NCBI GenBank assembly: GCA_958295975.1
Contig: OY282446.1
Coordinates: 1,403,289-1,467,288 of the forward strand
Origin: Tepidiformaceae bacterium
GTDB taxonomy: Bacteria; Chloroflexota; Dehalococcoidia; Tepidiformales; Tepidiformaceae
DNA length: 64,000 nucleotides
Direction: 5' to 3'
Positions 37,635 through 44,833 of this stretch are shown here, piece after piece. How positions within the stretch are numbered: position 1 is the stretch's first letter; each line of letters opens with the position of its first letter. A program made the translations under genes and the position numbers. Below the pieces are notes generated by a model, which searched no databases, was not told the DNA's origin, and saw only the letters and a program-made list of their open reading frames with translations.

Positions 37635-39371
37635 ATGCGCTCGTGCCGCGTCGCCCTCGCCCAGATGAACGCCGCCGTCGGCGACATCGACGGCAACTGC
37701 GCGCGCATCCGCGAGGCCATCGCCGCCGCCCGCGAGGCTGGCTGCGCCATCGTCGCCTTCCCCGAACTGGCCGTCACCGGCTACCCGCCCGAGGACCTGC
37801 TCCTGCGCCGCGCCTTCTGCGAGGATTCGCGCGCCGCCGTCGCCGCCCTCGCCCCCGCCGCCGAGGGCGTCATCGCCGTCGTCGGCTTCGTCGACTGGCG
37901 CGACGGCGACCCCCGCAACGCCGCCGCCGTGCTCGCGGGCGGCCAGTGGCGCCACTCCTGCCACAAGCGCCGCCTGCCCAACTACGGCGTCTTCGACGAG
38001 GAGCGCTACTTCGCCGCCGGGCGCTCCGTGCCCGTCTACCGCGCGGGCGACCTCGCCTTCGGCGTGGCCATCTGCGAGGACCTCTGGTACCCCGGCCAGC
38101 CCCTCACCGGCATGGCCCTCGGCGGGGCCGAGCTCTGCGTCCACGTCAACGCCTCGCCCTACCACCGCGGACGCGCCGCCGACCGCGCCCGCATGCTGGC
38201 CACGCGCGCCATCGACAACCGCATCGCCATCGCCTACGTGAACGCCGTCGGTGGCCAGGACGAGCTCGTGTTCGACGGCGGCTCGATGGCGCTCGATGCG
38301 CGCGGCGAGGTGATCGCCGGCGGCCCCCAATTTCGCGAGGAGCTGGTCGTCGTGGACATCGACCTCGACGAGGCCGCGCGCCGCCGCCTGCACGATCCGC
38401 GCCGCCGCGCCGAGCTGCGCGAGGAGGGCGCCCTCGCCGAAGTGGAGCGCGTGGACCTCGGCGTCGCGCCCGACCTGCGCCCGCCGCCCGCGCCCCTGCG
38501 CCCCCGCGCCGCCCCCCTCGCCCCCGAAGCCGAGGTGTGGGAGGCGCTCACGCTGGGCACGCGCGACTACCTCGCCAAGACCGGCTTCACGCGCGCCTTC
38601 GTGGGCCTCTCCGGCGGCATCGACTCCAGCGTCGTGGCCGCCGTCGCCGCCGACGCCCTCGGCCCCGCCAACGTCACCGGCGTCTCCATGCCCAGCCGCT
38701 ACTCCAGCGACCACAGCCGCGCCGACGCCCGCGCCCTCGCCGCCAACCTCGGCGTCGAGCTGCTGGATGTCCCCATCGAGCCCGCGCACGCGGCCATGCT
38801 GGAGATGCTGGCCGAACCGTTCGCGGGCACGGAGCCCGGCCTCGCCGAGGAGAACCTGCAGTCCCGCCAGCGCGGCAACGTGCTCATGAGCCTCGCCAAC
38901 AAGTTCGGCGCGCTCGTCCTCACCACCGGCAACAAGAGCGAGATGGCCACCGGCTACGCCACCCTCTACGGCGACATGGCGGGCGGCTTCGCCGTGCTCA
39001 AGGACGTGCCCAAGACGCTCGTTCAGGCCCTCGCCCGCTGGCGCAACGCCGCCGCCGGACGCGCCCTCATCCCCGAATCCGTCATCGCCAAGCCCCCCAG
39101 CGCCGAGCTGCGCCCCGACCAGTTCGACGCCGACTCCCTGCCCCCCTACGAGACGCTCGACCCCATCCTCGAGGCCTACGTGGAGCACGACCTCGGCGGC
39201 CCCGAAATCGTCGCTCTCGGCCACGACGAGGCCACCGTGCGCCGCGTCCTCGCGCTGGTGGACCGCAACGAGTACAAGCGCCGCCAGGCCCCGCCGGGCG
39301 TCAAGATCACGCCGCGCGCCTTCGGGCGCGACCGCCGCCTGCCCATCGCCAACCGCTACCGTGCCTGGTAG
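37635..39371 (+). CDS. nadE: Glutamine-dependent NAD+ synthetase
   Basis: The 578-residue protein joins a nitrilase-fold glutaminase and an ATP-dependent synthetase. The glutaminase triad is visible: Glu in VAFPELAVTGYPPED, Lys in HKRRLPNYGVFDEERYF and Cys in VAICEDLWYPG. The synthetase part has the PP-loop VGLSGGIDSSVVA, ENLQSRQRGN, TTGNKSEMATGYATLYGDM and a C-terminal EYKRRQAPPGVKIT. It makes NAD+ from the deamido form. It is housekeeping DNA inside an accessory zone. Confidence 0.96.
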   Translation: MRSCRVALAQMNAAVGDIDGNCARIREAIAAAREAGCAIVAFPELAVTGYPPEDLLLRRAFCEDSRAAVAALAPAAEGVIAVVGFVDWRDGDPRNAAAVLAGGQWRHSCHKRRLPNYGVFDEERYFAAGRSVPVYRAGDLAFGVAICEDLWYPGQPLTGMALGGAELCVHVNASPYHRGRAADRARMLATRAIDNRIAIAYVNAVGGQDELVFDGGSMALDARGEVIAGGPQFREELVVVDIDLDEAARRRLHDPRRRAELREEGALAEVERVDLGVAPDLRPPPAPLRPRAAPLAPEAEVWEALTLGTRDYLAKTGFTRAFVGLSGGIDSSVVAAVAADALGPANVTGVSMPSRYSSDHSRADARALAANLGVELLDVPIEPAHAAMLEMLAEPFAGTEPGLAEENLQSRQRGNVLMSLANKFGALVLTTGNKSEMATGYATLYGDMAGGFAVLKDVPKTLVQALARWRNAAAGRALIPESVIAKPPSAELRPDQFDADSLPPYETLDPILEAYVEHDLGGPEIVALGHDEATVRRVLALVDRNEYKRRQAPPGVKITPRAFGRDRRLPIANRYRAW

Positions 39372-39380
39372 CCCCGCCTG

Positions 39381-39386
39381 TACGAT
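39381..39386 (+). promoter_or_regulatory. -10 box of HEPN cassette 1, leaderless spacing
   Basis: TACGAT is followed by GGGCGC and the ATG at 39393. The same box and spacer precede cassette 2. Confidence 0.6.
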
Positions 39387-39392
39387 GGGCGC

Positions 39393-39830
39393 ATGGACGC
39401 GCGCCTCGAACAGACGCCCCCCGTGCGCGACTTCGCCCTCGCCATCGGCGAGTGGCTGCTCGCGCAACGCTTCGGCGCCATCACCCCCCTCGCCTTCCGC
39501 TACCGCCTGTGGGAGTCGCGCGATCCCTGCCCCGGTGAGCTCCCGCATGTCGTCATCGACCTCCTCGTGAACGACCCGCCGCCCCCTCCGCCGGAGTGGC
39601 ATCGTCTGAAGGACATGAAGAAGAAGGACATGAGCCTCGCCGAAATCGGGGAATGGGCGCAGGGCCAGATCTGGCCGCGCGCCGACATGGACGCCGTGCG
39701 CGAGGCGACCGAGGCGTACGCCGCCGGGGTTGGCGTGCCGGGCGGGATCGACCGGACTTGGCCGGTCCATGTGAACCTCGTCGGCTGTTCGGATGCGGGG
39801 GAATGCGGGTTCCCGGCGGTCAATGACTGA
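39393..39830 (+). CDS. Unknown partner protein, HEPN cassette 1
   Basis: The 145-residue protein matches no family I know. Its first 37 residues (MDARLEQTPPVRDFALAIGE...) are identical to those of the cassette 2 copy; after that only scattered blocks such as VIDLLVNDPP and W/EWAQ are shared. It has no nucleotidyltransferase GSx10DxD motif, so it is not the MNT partner usual for HEPN toxins, and no obvious DNA-binding motif. The charged KDMKKKDM stretch and a final DAGECGF are specific to this copy. Its stop overlaps the next start by 8 bp, so the two are translated together. Confidence 0.75.
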   Translation: MDARLEQTPPVRDFALAIGEWLLAQRFGAITPLAFRYRLWESRDPCPGELPHVVIDLLVNDPPPPPPEWHRLKDMKKKDMSLAEIGEWAQGQIWPRADMDAVREATEAYAAGVGVPGGIDRTWPVHVNLVGCSDAGECGFPAVND

Positions 39831-40329
39831 TCCGTCCGGGCCGGACAACGATCCCGATGGGCTCTTTCCCATCGATCCCCATGACCTGCTCCGCCATGCG
39901 GCGGTCGTTACCGATGTCCTGCCCGGGCGAACCGACACCGACTACCGGCGCGCCGTCTCCGCCGCCTACTACGCCCTCTACCACGCGCTCACCCTCCGCG
40001 CGGTCGCGCTCGGCGATCCATCCGGGCGGTACGACGCGGTTCGCCGCTTCAGGCACTGGCATCTCAGGAGGGTTGCCCGCGCGGTGATTGACGGCAGTGC
40101 TGCGGGCGATGGGCAGGTGGAACGTGTTGCCCGCGTCCTGCGGTTTCTTCAGACCGAGCGGGAACATGCCGACTACAACCACCGGGAGCGCTTCACGCAA
40201 CGCCGTGCACACGATGCCATTGGCGCCGCCACTGCCGCCGTTGCCACTCTTGCGGACCCCGCCTTCACCGCGGGCGATGGTGGCCAGTCCCTCCTGCGCC
40301 AGCTCGCCGCCCTCCCCGCCGCCCCGTAG
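39823..40329 (+). CDS. HEPN-like protein, cassette 1
   Basis: The 168-residue helical protein has TDYRRAVSAAYYALYHALTL, the pattern of UPF0332-type HEPN proteins (AxxxAYYAxFH), and RFRHWHLRRVAR. Near residue 118, REHADYNH gives an Rx6H motif like the RNase motif of HEPN toxins, conserved in the cassette 2 copy. HEPN domains often form toxin-antitoxin or defence RNases, and that role is an inference here. It begins within the partner gene's stop region, 8-bp overlap, typical of toxin-antitoxin operons. The C-terminal GQSLLRQLAALPAAP is shared by both copies. Confidence 0.75.
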   Translation: MTDPSGPDNDPDGLFPIDPHDLLRHAAVVTDVLPGRTDTDYRRAVSAAYYALYHALTLRAVALGDPSGRYDAVRRFRHWHLRRVARAVIDGSAAGDGQVERVARVLRFLQTEREHADYNHRERFTQRRAHDAIGAATAAVATLADPAFTAGDGGQSLLRQLAALPAAP

Positions 40330-40339
40330 CCCCGCCCTG

Positions 40340-40345
40340 TACGAT
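40340..40345 (+). promoter_or_regulatory. -10 box of HEPN cassette 2, leaderless spacing
   Basis: TACGAT followed by GGGCGC and the ATG at 40352, a copy of the cassette 1 promoter. The box lies 11 bp after the stop of the cassette 1 HEPN gene. Confidence 0.6.
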
Positions 40346-40351
40346 GGGCGC

Positions 40352-40804
40352 ATGGACGCGCGCCTCGAACAGACGCCCCCCGTGCGCGATTTCGCCCTCG
40401 CCATCGGCGAGTGGCTGCTCGCGCAACGCTTTGGCGCCATCACCCCCCTCGCCTTCCGCTACCACTTGTGGGAGTCGTACGAGGAGTGTCCTCACGAAAT
40501 CCCCCCGCACATCGTCATCGATCTGCTCGTGAACGACCCCCCGTCCCCCTCGCCGCAGTGGCTCGACCTGAGCGAGGAGGAGCGCGCCGCGCGCCCCATC
40601 CGCGAGTGGGCGCAGCAGGGATGCTGGCCGTTCGCGGACATGGATGCGCTGGAAGAGGCCGCGCGCGAACGCGCGAACGCGCTCGGCGTGCCGGACGCGC
40701 TCGACGATGCCTGGCCAGTCGAGGTGGACCTGTTCGGGCGCACCGAGGCGAAGAAGATGGGGATGCGGTTCCCCCATGTCGCCAGCGAAGCGGTCGCGCG
40801 CTAG
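40352..40804 (+). CDS. Unknown partner protein, HEPN cassette 2
   Basis: The 150-residue paralogue of the gene at 39393 is identical over the first 37 residues, then diverges (HLWESYEECPHE, IREWAQQGCWPFADMDALEE, WPVEVDLFGRTEAKK). Conserved points outside the N-terminus are VIDLLVNDPP, WAQ, W/WP.ADMDA and WPV.V.L.G, which may mark the functional core. The start is fixed by identity with the first copy. The TAG stop is directly followed by the GTG of the second HEPN gene. Confidence 0.75.
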   Translation: MDARLEQTPPVRDFALAIGEWLLAQRFGAITPLAFRYHLWESYEECPHEIPPHIVIDLLVNDPPSPSPQWLDLSEEERAARPIREWAQQGCWPFADMDALEEAARERANALGVPDALDDAWPVEVDLFGRTEAKKMGMRFPHVASEAVAR

Positions 40805-41296
40805 GTGCGGCCGGACGGCGAACCCGAATACCTCTCGCCCATCGACCCGTATGCCCTGCTCCGCCATGCGCGTCGGCGCATCAATGCGCCGGACGCGGAG
40901 GAGACCGACTACCGGCGCGCCGTCTCCGACGCCTACTATGCGCTGTACCACGCCGTTACGCTGCTCGCCGCTCCCGTCCTGTCGTCCACCGATGATCCCC
41001 TCGAACCGTACCGGCGAATCCGACGGTTCAGGCACTGGCATCTTCGCGATGCCGCCGAGGAGGCGCGGGAGAGCGCCGACGGGCAGGTGCGAATAGTTGC
41101 GCGGGCGATTCTGCGCCTGCACGCCCGGCGGATGGCCGCTGACTACAGTCACCTTGCCCGCTTTACGCAGGTGCGCGCGAGGCGGCTCATCGGTCAGGCG
41201 GAAGCCGCCGTGGAGGCCGTCACGGCCCCGGCCTTCACCGCGGGCGGCGGCCAGTCCCTCCTGCGCCAGCTCGCCGCCCTCCCCGCGGCCCCGTAG
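40805..41296 (+). CDS. HEPN-like protein, cassette 2
   Basis: The 163-residue paralogue of the protein at 39823 keeps PIDPYALLRHA, TDYRRAVSDAYYALYHAVTL, RRFRHWHLRD, and ARRMAADYSHLARFTQVRA, in which RMAADYSH repeats the Rx6H motif. Conservation of exactly these blocks while the rest has changed suggests both copies are under selection. The GTG start abuts the stop of its partner with no gap. The final GGGQSLLRQLAALPAAP repeats the cassette 1 ending. Confidence 0.75.
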   Translation: MRPDGEPEYLSPIDPYALLRHARRRINAPDAEETDYRRAVSDAYYALYHAVTLLAAPVLSSTDDPLEPYRRIRRFRHWHLRDAAEEARESADGQVRIVARAILRLHARRMAADYSHLARFTQVRARRLIGQAEAAVEAVTAPAFTAGGGQSLLRQLAALPAAP

Positions 41297-41476
41297 CCCC
41301 GCCCGCGCCCACGCGGTAGACTACGCTCCAACGACGACCGGACCCGGAACAGGGGGCTGCGTGGTGGCTGGCCTCGCGGGACCGCAGTGGCGTGTGAAGC
41401 GTCGATGCGTTCCTTGCGAAACGCAGGCTCTTGGCGTAGCCTTACTTGAGAGACAGGAAGGAGAGACAGGAAGGCA
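41297..41476 (+). promoter_or_regulatory. Intergenic leader with two -10-like boxes and a hairpin
   Basis: This 180-bp gap holds TAGACT (41317-41322), a hairpin TGCGTT / AACGCA (41406-41425) and TAGCCT (41437-41442). Just before the next ATG a doubled GAGACAGGAAG precedes GGAAGG, a strong ribosome site. If the first box is used the leader would be about 150 nt. No coding frame is convincing here. Confidence 0.4.
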
Positions 41477-41986
41477 ATGGACATCGGAAAGTACTACCGC
41501 GTTGGTGACGTCCCTGAAAACATCGACAGCTTCCACTGTGGTTATGACTGGCAGGGGCGCCTGTTTGTCGGTGGAGCTTGGGACCAGTGCGTTGAAGAGT
41601 GTGCTGAGGACGCTGTGGGAGCTGTGCGTTGTGATTACGGAGTTATCATTGAGTGGGATCGTGTCAATGGTCTCCTCAACTCTCATCGCATCGCCCACGT
41701 TTCGCCTGTCAGTGACGTCGAGGCGGTCCCCGAGGACGAGACTGACTGGAACCCCAGCGCGTGGCATGGCCATTGCTGGTTCTGCAGCTGGGATGGTCCG
41801 AGCCGTGATTCTGAAGAGCAGGCTCACTATGACTGCCTGCGGCATTCGGATGACCCCCGGCTGTTTTCTGGAGATCGTACGCCGACTCAAGGGTGGTGGC
41901 AGTCCAGCGATGGGCAGCGGAAGTTCTTGGGTTATGGTAGTACGCTTCCTGGTACCGGACTCACGTGGACGAGACCCTCACCGTAA
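41477..41986 (+). CDS. Cys/His-rich small protein of unknown function
   Basis: The 169-residue protein has no family I recognise. Its centre reads WHGHCWFCSWDG followed by HYDCLRH, giving a His/Cys spacing (HxHCxxC...HxxC) that could bind a metal such as zinc. Aromatic and acidic residues are frequent. It lacks a signal peptide. Base composition is well below that of neighbours, suggesting recent acquisition. A GGAAGG lies 2 bases before the ATG with a longer purine-rich tract upstream. Confidence 0.6.
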   Translation: MDIGKYYRVGDVPENIDSFHCGYDWQGRLFVGGAWDQCVEECAEDAVGAVRCDYGVIIEWDRVNGLLNSHRIAHVSPVSDVEAVPEDETDWNPSAWHGHCWFCSWDGPSRDSEEQAHYDCLRHSDDPRLFSGDRTPTQGWWQSSDGQRKFLGYGSTLPGTGLTWTRPSP

Positions 41987-42083: not shown

Positions 42084-43058
42084 ATGAGGAATATCATTGT
42101 CAGGATGGTGGCGGCGCTGGTCGTTGCCCCCTTGCTGCTCTCCGCGTGTAGCGGCAGCGGGGTGGAGTCTCCGACGGCTACGCCCACCGCCACGCCTACG
42201 GCCACGGCCACGGCCACGGCCACGGCCACCGCCACGCCCACGCCTACCGCCACGGCCACGCCCACGCCCACGCCTACCGCCACGGCCACGCCCACGCCCA
42301 CGCCTACCGCCACGCCCACGCCCACGCCTACGGCCACGCCCACGCCCACGGCTACGCCCACCGCCACGCCCACGCCCACGGCTACGCCCACCGCCACGCC
42401 CACGCCCACGGCTACGCCCACCGCCACGCTCACGCTCAAGTGTCAGCCTGCCGCATCCATACTGCAGCTAACAGACAAGAACTCTTGGTACATACGCTAT
42501 GGGCAAGAACGAAATCATGCAGACCCGTACTCCAATATCTCCTATTCTGTCGAGCTCTTCAGTGAGTTACAGCTGGGCGGCCACATTTACCGCGTGAGGG
42601 CAGAGATAGCACGTGGATCGCGCACGGATGGTGTTTACGTGAACCACGTATACATCATCATCTCCAGTGATAGCGCCCCCGTCATGCTGGACGACATCAT
42701 GCTGGATGACATCACTCCGCGTATCAGCATTTTCTTCCAATGGTTTGACGAAACACTTAAACCGGGAGAACCAGGTGAGTGGACAGAGGTCGACCGATCT
42801 CGTGGCTGGCCAATTGAAGGCTGGGCAGGAAGATGGGAACAGCACGGTGACACAGTGCGTGCAATGGCCATCAAGCACAAAAGGCTCGAATATTATAACG
42901 GGCACGGGCATAGCCCGGTGTTTAGCACCATCGACACATGGGTATGGGGCCTACGGCTTCACGAGCCCACCGTTGATGACACTCTCAGCTGGATGCCCGT
43001 GGTGTGCGATTCGCCACCACCGCCGCAGGCCACGACACCGCCACAGGCCACGAGATGA
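42084..43058 (+). CDS. Lipoprotein with long Thr-Pro/Ala linker
   Basis: The 324-residue protein has a type II signal with lipobox LLSAC (Cys22), then about 90 residues of repeating TPTA/TPTP, then a 190-residue outer domain ([52 protein letters not shown]) that I do not recognise. The linker should hold the domain away from the membrane, across the envelope. The outer-domain DNA is of lower G+C. GAAAGGAAG precedes the ATG. Confidence 0.75.
42170..42438 (+). repeat. Hexamer-based tandem repeat inside the lipoprotein gene
   Basis: About 45 units of a 6-bp theme (ACSSCC, Thr-Pro or Thr-Ala) form higher-order blocks such as ACGGCTACGCCCACCGCC. Because units are multiples of six bases, slippage would change the linker length without breaking the frame. 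Confidence 0.9.
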
Positions 43059-43141: not shown

Positions 43142-44833
43142 TCAGACCTCCACCCCCCGGCGCTCCGCGCTGGGCGCGAAATCCAGCACCTCCAGCTCCA
43201 TGCGCTCCCCACGCCACTCCCGGCTCAGCGTGTAGACGATGTCCAGCTCCTGCGCCAGCTCCGCCTGCTCATCGCCGCGGCGGAAGGCGATGCCCGGCCA
43301 GGTGGCCGCGCCGTCCCGCACCTTCAGGCGCAGGTGGCGCTCGTCCGCGCCCACGCGGCGGCTGTCGCGCAGCTCCACGCCGCGGCTCAGCAGCACCGGG
43401 CGGCGATTGCCCTGCCCGCACGGCTCGAAGCGCGTCAGCCCCTTGATCTCCAGCCCGTTCAGCGCCGCCAGCGGGGCCTCCGCGTCGATCGTGAAGGTCG
43501 CGCGGCGGTCGTCCGGCCCCAGCTGCTCCGCCGCCGTGTTCATGATGCGCTCGCGGAACTCCGGCAGGCGCTCGTTGCGGATGGTGAAGCCCGCCGCCGC
43601 GCGATGGCCGCCGTGGCGCTCCAGCAGATCGCGCTCCCGGCGGATGGCGCGCACGATGTCGAAGCGGCCCCGCGTGCGCGCGCTGGCGCGGCTGAACTCC
43701 GGCCCCCGCTCGTAGACGATGGCCGGGCGGCGGCGCGACTCCGCCAGCCGCCCCGCCACGATGCCGATGATGCCCGCGTGCAGCTTGCCGCTGCCCACCA
43801 GCGTGAGCGGCTCGTCCTCCGCGCCCAGCAGCGCCTCCGCCTCCGCCTGGCCGCGCTCGCACTCCTCGCGGCGCTGCGTGTTGAGCGCGTCCAGCTCCGC
43901 GGCCAGCCGTTGCGCCTCGGCGGGCGTCTCCGCCAGCAGCAGGTCGAGCGCCGTGCGCGCGTGCGTGAGGCGTCCGGCGGCGTTGAGGCGCGGCCCCAGG
44001 CCGAAGCCCAGCGTCTCCGCGCCGATGCGTTCGGGCGGGCCGCCCGCGACCGCCGCCAGCGCCTCCACGCCGGGCCGCGGCGAGGCGCGCATGTGCGCCA
44101 GCCCCTCCGTCACGATGGCGCGGTTCTCATCCGCCAGCGGGGCCACGTCCACCACCGTGCCCAGCGCCACGAGGTCGAGGAACTCCGCCGCCGGCAGTTC
44201 CCGCCCCAGCGACTCGAAGAGCGCCTGCAGGAAACGCCACGAGACGCCCACGGCGGCCAGCTCGGTGAAGGGATAGGGCGAGTCCTCGCGCTTGGGGTTG
44301 ACCACCGCCAGGGCGGCGGGCAGCTCCGGCGGCACGGAGTGGTGGTCGAGCACGATCACGTCCGCGCCGAGGCGGTTGGCGAGGGCGATCTCGGACACCG
44401 AGCTGGTGCCGCAGTCCGCCGTGATGAGCAGCCCCGCGCCCGCCGCGCGCAGCTCCGCGACCGCGCCCGCGTTCAGCCCGTAGCCCTCGCGGAAGCGGTC
44501 CGGCAGGTAGGGCGCGGTGGCCGCGCCCAGCCGCTCCAGCGCCAGCTTCAGCAGCGCGATGGAGGTCACGCCGTCCACGTCGAAGTCGCCGAAGAGCGCG
44601 ATCGTCTCGCCGTCGGCGATGGCGCGCCGCGTGCGCGCGAGCGCCTCCGCCATGCCCGGCAGCAGCAGCGGGTCGTGGCGCTCCGCCAGGTGGGGCTTGT
44701 AGAAGCGCTCCGCCGCCTCGCGCGTGGCGATGCCGCGCGCCGCCAGCGCCGTGCCCGTCACCGGCGGCAGCCCCGCCAGCCGCTCCTGCGCGGCCCCGGC
44801 GCGGCGCCAGCGCCAGCGCGCCGCCTCCGTCAC
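43142..44833 (-). CDS. recJ: Single-stranded-DNA exonuclease RecJ
   Basis: The 563-residue DHH-family protein has FGDFDVDGVTSIALL, ITADCGTSSVSEI, VIVLDHHSVPPELP, VALGTVVDVAPL (motif DxxD), RLNAAGRLTHA and the DHHA1 motif [13 protein letters not shown], followed by a C-terminal OB-type domain. RecJ degrades ssDNA 5'-3' in recombination and mismatch repair. In many RecJ proteins motif III reads SCG; here it is DCGTSS, still family-like. The GTG start overlaps the fabF stop. The 83 bp to the convergent lipoprotein gene show no clear terminator. Confidence 0.95.
   Translation of the reverse strand: MTEAARWRWRRAGAAQERLAGLPPVTGTALAARGIATREAAERFYKPHLAERHDPLLLPGMAEALARTRRAIADGETIALFGDFDVDGVTSIALLKLALERLGAATAPYLPDRFREGYGLNAGAVAELRAAGAGLLITADCGTSSVSEIALANRLGADVIVLDHHSVPPELPAALAVVNPKREDSPYPFTELAAVGVSWRFLQALFESLGRELPAAEFLDLVALGTVVDVAPLADENRAIVTEGLAHMRASPRPGVEALAAVAGGPPERIGAETLGFGLGPRLNAAGRLTHARTALDLLLAETPAEAQRLAAELDALNTQRREECERGQAEAEALLGAEDEPLTLVGSGKLHAGIIGIVAGRLAESRRRPAIVYERGPEFSRASARTRGRFDIVRAIRRERDLLERHGGHRAAAGFTIRNERLPEFRERIMNTAAEQLGPDDRRATFTIDAEAPLAALNGLEIKGLTRFEPCGQGNRRPVLLSRGVELRDSRRVGADERHLRLKVRDGAATWPGIAFRRGDEQAELAQELDIVYTLSREWRGERMELEVLDFAPSAERRGVEV

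Follow-up and report, generated by a model that had tools for sequence, protein, structure and literature searches.

Tandem HEPN gene pairs with a small non-nucleotidyltransferase partner: a candidate toxin–antitoxin-like module in a Tepidiformaceae genome

Organization of the tandem gene pairs

We analysed a 64,000-nucleotide stretch of DNA from a Tepidiformaceae bacterium (the window; bases 1403289-1467288 of a 2.40-Mb single-contig genome, labelled G000), in which two direct copies of a gene pair lie at 39393-41296. In each copy the first gene (A) encodes a small partner protein and the second (B) a predicted HEPN protein. The four co-directional genes, A1, B1, A2 and B2, stand between the end of nadE (39371) and a recJ-like gene on the opposite strand (43142-44833), both flanking genes being putatively named from their translations. 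Gaps of 21 nt and 22 nt separate nadE from A1 and B1 from A2, respectively. The genes and their upstream elements are as follows:

39393..39830, plus strand: A1, small partner, 145 aa, presumed antitoxin (open reading frame, ORF; AlphaFold2 predicted local distance difference test (pLDDT) 75.3, predicted template modelling score (pTM) 0.70)
39823..40329, plus strand: B1, HEPN protein, 168 aa, presumed ribonuclease toxin (AlphaFold2 pLDDT 84.5, pTM 0.81; HEPN folds top the fold search)
40352..40804, plus strand: A2, second partner copy, 150 aa (ORF)
40805..41296, plus strand: B2, second HEPN copy, 163 aa, with a GTG start immediately 3′ of the A2 stop (ORF)
39379..39386, plus strand: TGTACGAT, extended -10-like box, 6 nt 5′ of the A1 start (consensus likeness judged by eye)
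40338..40345, plus strand: TGTACGAT, the same -10-like box 5′ of A2 (consensus likeness judged by eye)

A third A–B pair in the same order (A3 and B3) occurs elsewhere in the genome, at G000:C1:1863806-1864775, and because it exists the arrangement in the window is unlikely to be due to chance. The genes overlap by 8 nt in both A1–B1 and A3–B3, and the A2 stop abuts the B2 start, so that the partner gene precedes its HEPN gene and overlaps or abuts it in the manner of a type II-like system. The first-pass annotation, made from the letters of the window, had described a coupled gene pair in two direct-repeat copies, and the four genes together with the third pair bear this out. The -10-like box before A1 is a candidate promoter that would give a near-leaderless transcript; TGTACAAT is found 5′ of those A genes of genomes G184 and G242 that lie immediately before B, and the box was seen neither 5′ of A3 nor 5′ of six first-position A genes of relatives.

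Predicted identities of the two proteins

The AlphaFold2 model of B1, built from a seven-row alignment, is an all-helical bundle. Its best match among solved folds is the HEPN protein 2hsb (Z 13.0, root-mean-square deviation 3.6, 116 aligned), followed by 1wol (Z 10.8), 1ufb (Z 10.6), and then 2q00 and the sacsin HEPN (Z 10.1); the fold tool itself cautions that values of Z below ~13 can reflect a common arrangement in helical bundles. Within the top eight fold ranks, 2hsb, 1wol, 3o10 and 1o3u are HEPN by PDB title, 2q00 is listed as HEPN in Table 1 of PMC3710099, 2jpu is the same protein as 2q00 by target name, and 1ufb and 3mfn carry no HEPN label. The HEPN chains of HEPN-MNT entries (MNT, minimal nucleotidyltransferase) match the B1 model at Z 5.8-8.2. 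A sequence profile independently finds 2hsb among PDB sequences (E 7.7e-5), and Foldseek alone gave no E below 0.001 for B1, placing 2hsb at E 0.016 with a probability of 1.00. B also matches a PHROG of unknown function (E 7.1e-8 and 2.3e-9). By its predicted fold, B is a HEPN protein closest to the HEPN-T/PF05168 group, in agreement with the earlier assignment of the second gene to HEPN.

Both copies carry an Rx6H motif (REHADYNH and RMAADYSH; R113-H120 in B1 numbering), which also occurs in G184 and in a broken HEPN copy. The motif is present in 4/4 aligned genus proteins and in 0/3 aligned homologues from another family, which have proline at that place, whereas RxxxDY is present in all seven aligned B proteins. 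In a scan of 25 loci, RxxxDY was found everywhere except L042 and L106, in which no frame taken as HEPN had it, and L056, which the pattern of the scan missed; Rx6H was found by the scan in genus loci only. The idea that Rx6H is confined to the genus was dropped, since L056, from a genome outside the class, by reading has RHSADYDH. As far as these sequences indicate, RxxxDY is nearly universal in the family, which does not hold for the Rx6H histidine; Rx6H had been correctly noted in both copies, but most HEPN relatives beyond the genus do not conserve its histidine. RxxxDY without a general Rx6H histidine fits the remark, in the available text of PMC3710099, that HEPN-T proteins often have D in place of H together with another conserved H. 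Tyrosine Y118 is conserved in B, and the type VII HEPN motif RX4HXY occurs in none of the seven B proteins.

Searches of Pfam, NCBIfam, PADLOC and PDB sequences found no match to protein A, whose single PHROGs match was insignificant, and the nucleotidyltransferase motif GSX8-12DXD occurs in 0/11 A homologues. The first-pass description of a gene with neither a known antitoxin domain nor a nucleotidyltransferase motif was therefore accurate. The predicted topology of A1, modelled from an 11-row alignment, is helix-strand-strand-helices-strand, and its fold matches peak at Z 7.2, a level that, according to the tool, models lacking a clear match typically reach; MNT is absent among the fold matches listed, which excludes nothing. 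A is, by its predicted model, a small α/β protein of undescribed kind. A KH-II/RimP-like RNA binder was considered, as the top fold matches have that arrangement, and was not adopted because unrelated models also reach Z 7.2 and no GxxG loop was found by eye.

The strand order of A, and the resemblance of its strand VVIDLLV to the MNT strand SDIDLLV, suggested a variant MNT-HEPN (type VII) system in which A would be a strongly degenerated MNT, AMPylating or merely binding B. The conserved Y118 agrees with this, as does the gene order, since MNT genes sit 5′ of HEPN genes almost always according to the available text of PMC3710099, and hhalign aligns exactly the two strands, albeit without significance. 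However, hhalign of A against the MNTs of its own genus returned a probability of 0.3%, indicating no profile similarity, and in the A1 model no helix separates the first strand from the second. The motif missing from all 11 A proteins was present in 8/8 genus MNTs, although these controls (8 of 12 PF01909 loci) were picked with a pattern requiring similar residues. In addition, ordinary MNT and PF05168 matches adjoin in relatives (G152:C61, G216:C33), and this genome itself (G000:C1:881783-882327) has a PF05168 match next to a partial MNT match; because such matches stand side by side, the canonical MNT-HEPN kind appears to coexist with the A–B pairs. Profile comparison, motif count and topology thus do not support a degenerate MNT, which we keep as a rival and regard as rather improbable.

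Sequence variation, genomic context and relatives

The two copies in the window are most alike at their ends:

39372..39523, plus strand: near-identical left end of copy 1, pairing with 40331-40482 (95%)
40331..40482, plus strand: near-identical left end of copy 2, pairing with 39372-39523
40279..40337, plus strand: near-identical right end of copy 1, pairing with 41246-41304 (97%)
41246..41304, plus strand: near-identical right end of copy 2, pairing with 40279-40337

The left block comprises 152 nt at the start of A, and the right block comprises 59 nt at the end of B together with non-coding spacer; between them, the middles are 52-78% identical across copies, and whole-protein identity is 63% for A and 57-58% for B. 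When the copies are aligned by codon, identity is 98% over the first 90 nt of A and 57-60% over its second half, and it is 97% over the last 63 nt of B and 52-60% in the middle of B, with third codon positions at the extreme ends 90-93% identical. The near-identical ends and diverged middles noted in the first pass are thus present, but the middles retain much more than presumed functional residues. The second half of A1 is nearer A3 than A2 (e.g. 0.80 vs 0.57), whereas its start is nearer A2 (0.98) than A3 (0.87); B1 and B2 agree at 0.97 over the last 63 nt, and upstream of that their mutual distance is approximately their distance to B3. Maximum chi-square permutation gave p 1e-4 and 0.0014 for A, and p 2e-4 and 6e-4 for B. 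Because the middle of A1 is nearer the distant third copy than its neighbour, recombination or gene conversion between the copies would be the simplest cause of the pattern, rather than selection on the ends. What had been taken for paralogous toxin–antitoxin pairs evolving separate specificity is better described as a recombination mosaic, which in itself is no sign of new specificity, although separate specificity of the copies is possible.

Searches were run over 294 genomes of the class (A at E <= 0.01), including eight of the genus, with a ninth genus genome (G557) outside these searches. A was found in 7/294 genomes, all within the genus (7/8), and B-like matches in 14/294, three of them in the genus (3/8). 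Five of the six B-like genes in the eight genus genomes lie directly 3′ of an A, the sixth being split over two frames; co-occurrence of the two genes in other genomes, proposed as a check on the first-pass reading, is thus observed within the genus. In one of the five, that of G184 (L021:4780-5415), a stop codon interrupts the B frame close to its start while both adjacent A genes are open; a shorter B product from a later start is possible. Between G184 and G242, B shows a ratio of non-synonymous to synonymous substitution rates (dN/dS) of 0.149.

The module sits at insertion sites whose content varies between relatives: nadE–recJ in this genome, and beside an acyl-CoA dehydrogenase gene in others. 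The latter were seven metagenome-assembled genomes fetched through A, so that A is present in all of them by construction; one hydrolase gene lies some way downstream of it. The six A copies with upstream bases displayed follow the same gene end, read as acyl-CoA dehydrogenase (the upstream part of L052 was not included). Between this first A and the hydrolase gene, L049 and L050 have a second A with B, L051, L054 and L055 carry in the A–B place an 838-bp cassette, unrelated and made up of two ORFs on the minus strand, L052 has an insertion of ~3.4 kb with part of that cassette, and L053 has nothing. The cassette (also at L023:4847-5663) has no Pfam match and is a candidate two-gene module in its own right. 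The nadE–recJ spacing ranges from ~180 nt (G251), 480 nt (G233), 580 nt (G557) and 1.4 kb (G224) to 2.0 kb (G184), 3.5 kb (G242) and 3.8 kb in this genome, and neither A1 nor B1 gave a tblastn match in the corresponding stretches of the six relatives. Two further ORFs lie 3′ of the pairs in the window: one of 169 aa (41477-41986) without a Pfam match or a tblastn match in the relatives' nadE–recJ stretches, and one (42084-43058) read as lipoprotein-like, containing an extended tract of Thr-Pro/Thr-Ala repeats (family D1).

Variable insertion sites could also belong to a two-part anti-phage or restriction-linked unit, in which B would be a phage-triggered abortive-infection RNase and A its sensor or inhibitor. 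The third pair adjoins a gene with a NucS_C domain (E 5.1e-12), an HNH gene precedes a broken HEPN relative, and Table 1 of PMC3710099 mentions several instances of HEPN-T clustering with restriction operons. Nonetheless, the neighbours of the third copy may be chance, the window pairs stand between nadE and recJ, and none of the four window proteins has a PADLOC match. We consider the defence unit an unlikely explanation. At the HNH locus (L009:5040-6214), the HNH gene matches Pfam HNH (E 3.2e-7) and PADLOC REase_II (down to 9.6e-6), and its SRA match is weak, falling under the cut-off. It is followed by the broken HEPN relative, near 711774 of the genome of the window, whose reading is split across two frames, and the locus looks like a decayed restriction-HEPN unit.

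HEPN relatives outside the genus were also compared, their neighbours and the secondary structure of their partners being judged by eye. In G264 and G282 the HEPN gene is immediately preceded by another kind of small partner, which occurs in 2/294 class genomes and beside a HEPN in 3/3 cases. A small adjacent partner is present in 11 of the 14 assigned outside-genus loci (L030, L031, L032, L033, L034, L038, L041, L042, L045, L047 and L056), with L039, L040, L043 and L046 left outside this count, and the partners show the order helix-strand-strand-helix-strand. At L056:187-1110 (G453), two copies of the small partner occupy one open frame upstream of the HEPN gene. In a viral contig (L101), a HEPN and small-partner pair lies downstream of an ORF read as terminase-like.

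Relatives of the G282 HEPN occur on 30 plasmid records, 27 of them from Rhizobium and 20 typed as conjugative. Of 72,556 plasmid records searched with Rhizobium queries, 35 carry the partner (the Rhizobium protein WP_017958513.1 is one example) and 36 the HEPN, with 32 carrying both; the two matches are <=75 nt apart in all 32 and <=10 nt apart in 28, and in four the HEPN match covers only about half. The partner stands alone on three records and the HEPN on four, of which three have matches limited to 30 residues; in the remaining one, from Acidisoma, the HEPN is overlapped by another, different small gene. In two annotated Rhizobium records the genes adjoin, both labelled "hypothetical protein", one pair lying between repC and a ParB-family gene; a third record carries no annotation, and that of an Aquibium record does not show the pair. 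Searches with the G282 partner in plasmids and with A6 in viral contigs found nothing.

This distribution bears on whether A and B might form no toxin system at all, being instead a domesticated nucleic-acid-binding or regulatory complex. In four genomes A persists in the absence of B, and these A genes have a dN/dS of 0.17-0.39 among themselves; the fold matches of A include RimP and ribosomal chains read as S3-type, at a noise level of Z about 7, and some HEPN proteins have no RNase motif according to the available text of PMC3710099. Unlike a housekeeping complex, however, B is found in only 3/8 genus genomes, at sites of exchangeable content, and similar pairs are carried by conjugative plasmids. 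A domesticated complex accordingly seems improbable to us.

Proposed mechanism and comparison with known systems

We consider it probable, with some reserve, that the pairs constitute a toxin–antitoxin-like module, in which an HEPN-T-type ribonuclease toxin, B, is restrained by a non-nucleotidyltransferase antitoxin, A. We infer this reading from genomes alone, and with it co-transcription, toxicity, RNase activity, dimer, binding, neutralization and target. B would most likely be a dimeric endoribonuclease, with a site that includes the conserved R113-xxx-D117-Y118 and, close by, histidines H54, H78 and, within the genus, H120 (B1 numbering). A would be translated first, from a message common to A and B, and would neutralize B by direct binding rather than AMPylation, while the two adjacent copies may have swapped ends by homologous recombination. 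An antitoxin role is in keeping with the position of the partner ahead of the HEPN, with the gene overlap and with the tolerance of A where B is missing, and the missing nucleotidyltransferase motif argues against AMPylation. A candidate module of this kind, as put forward in the first-pass annotation, is thus consistent with the fold, the pairing, the variable presence and absence, and the plasmid pairs, whereas support for a role in defence is circumstantial, coming from the NucS_C and HNH genes.

More tentatively, and with somewhat less than even confidence, A and the small partners of other diverged HEPN-T genes (in Chloroflexota, on Rhizobium and Acidisoma plasmids, and in a viral contig) may belong to one fast-diverging, unnamed family of non-enzymatic HEPN antitoxins, spread on plasmids and sharing an α-β-β-α-β core. 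The sequence evidence joining A to these partners is weak. Comparisons of A with single partner families failed (probability 0.2-0.6%), two other partner families look related (probability 56%), and A8, a type of small partner lying downstream, gave no sign of relationship to A, A6 or the MNTs. Against a pooled profile of nine partner sequences, A scored 12.2 (global) and 22.8 (local), with lower scores for the controls: 4.6 and 10.0 for the reversed profile, 6.5 and 13.3 for MNTs, and 5.3 and 13.8 for A8. Among 196 class genomes, the pooled profile found G264 only, whether G000 was among them not being apparent.

Several observations weigh against these proposals. B falls short of the gathering score of HEPN-T/PF05168, its Pfam HEPN scores being 19 and 15.1 bits against a 22-bit cut-off, and PADLOC, as noted, recognizes none of the four proteins. 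Since A is kept without a B match in four genus genomes, A may have a function of its own, and the fairly high dN/dS between copies (A 0.45-0.76, B 0.35-0.47) indicates that constraint is moderate. Longer neighbours and no small partner accompany the HEPN relative in three of the 14 assigned outside-genus loci (L035, L036 and L037) and in three of four viral loci (L100, L102 and L103). The match of A to the pooled partner profile is weak (hhalign probability 10.8%, pairwise E 0.0029), and in each mode 1/200 column shuffles beat it, with very high, unexplained scores (128.6, 135.0). Lastly, nothing was found with the A alignment in viral contigs or with A1 in plasmids (A was not searched in the phage collection), nor with B2 in phages and in plasmids.

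If the proposed antitoxin family is real, it would represent a second way, besides AMPylation by MNT, to restrain HEPN toxins, and the A genes without B could be leftovers of such modules or guards against them. A HEPN branch with a non-nucleotidyltransferase partner, present also on transmissible plasmids, offers short clonable pairs that would allow testing of whether HEPN toxins are restrained by binding alone, and of which residues replace the missing histidine.

Among titles and abstract openings of the open-licence literature, we recognized no description of a HEPN paired with such a protein; the available text of PMC3710099 reports a HEPN with a ParA-like partner, which is a different case. 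The nearest fold and sequence group of B is HEPN-T/PF05168 (UPF0332; 2hsb, 1wol and the sacsin HEPN), with which B shares D in place of the usual H and the conservation of other histidines (Table 1 of PMC3710099), but from which it differs by scoring under the Pfam cut-off and having no MNT neighbour. The HEPN-MNT system (HepT-MntA, type VII) likewise consists of two small neighbouring genes with the partner first and a HEPN fold (Z 5.8-8.2), whereas A has neither a GSX10DXD-type motif nor similarity to MNT, and B lacks RX4HXY. AbiV (9bj6), by PDB title the HEPN RNase of a two-component antiphage system, shares the HEPN fold as a distant match only (Z 6.4). The class II HEPN/MNT pairs, as described in the available text of PMC7641770, resemble the present ones in a HEPN without RX4H that has a conserved tyrosine, and their HEPNs are presumably of PF05168 type; their MNTs nevertheless retain GSX10DXD, which A does not.

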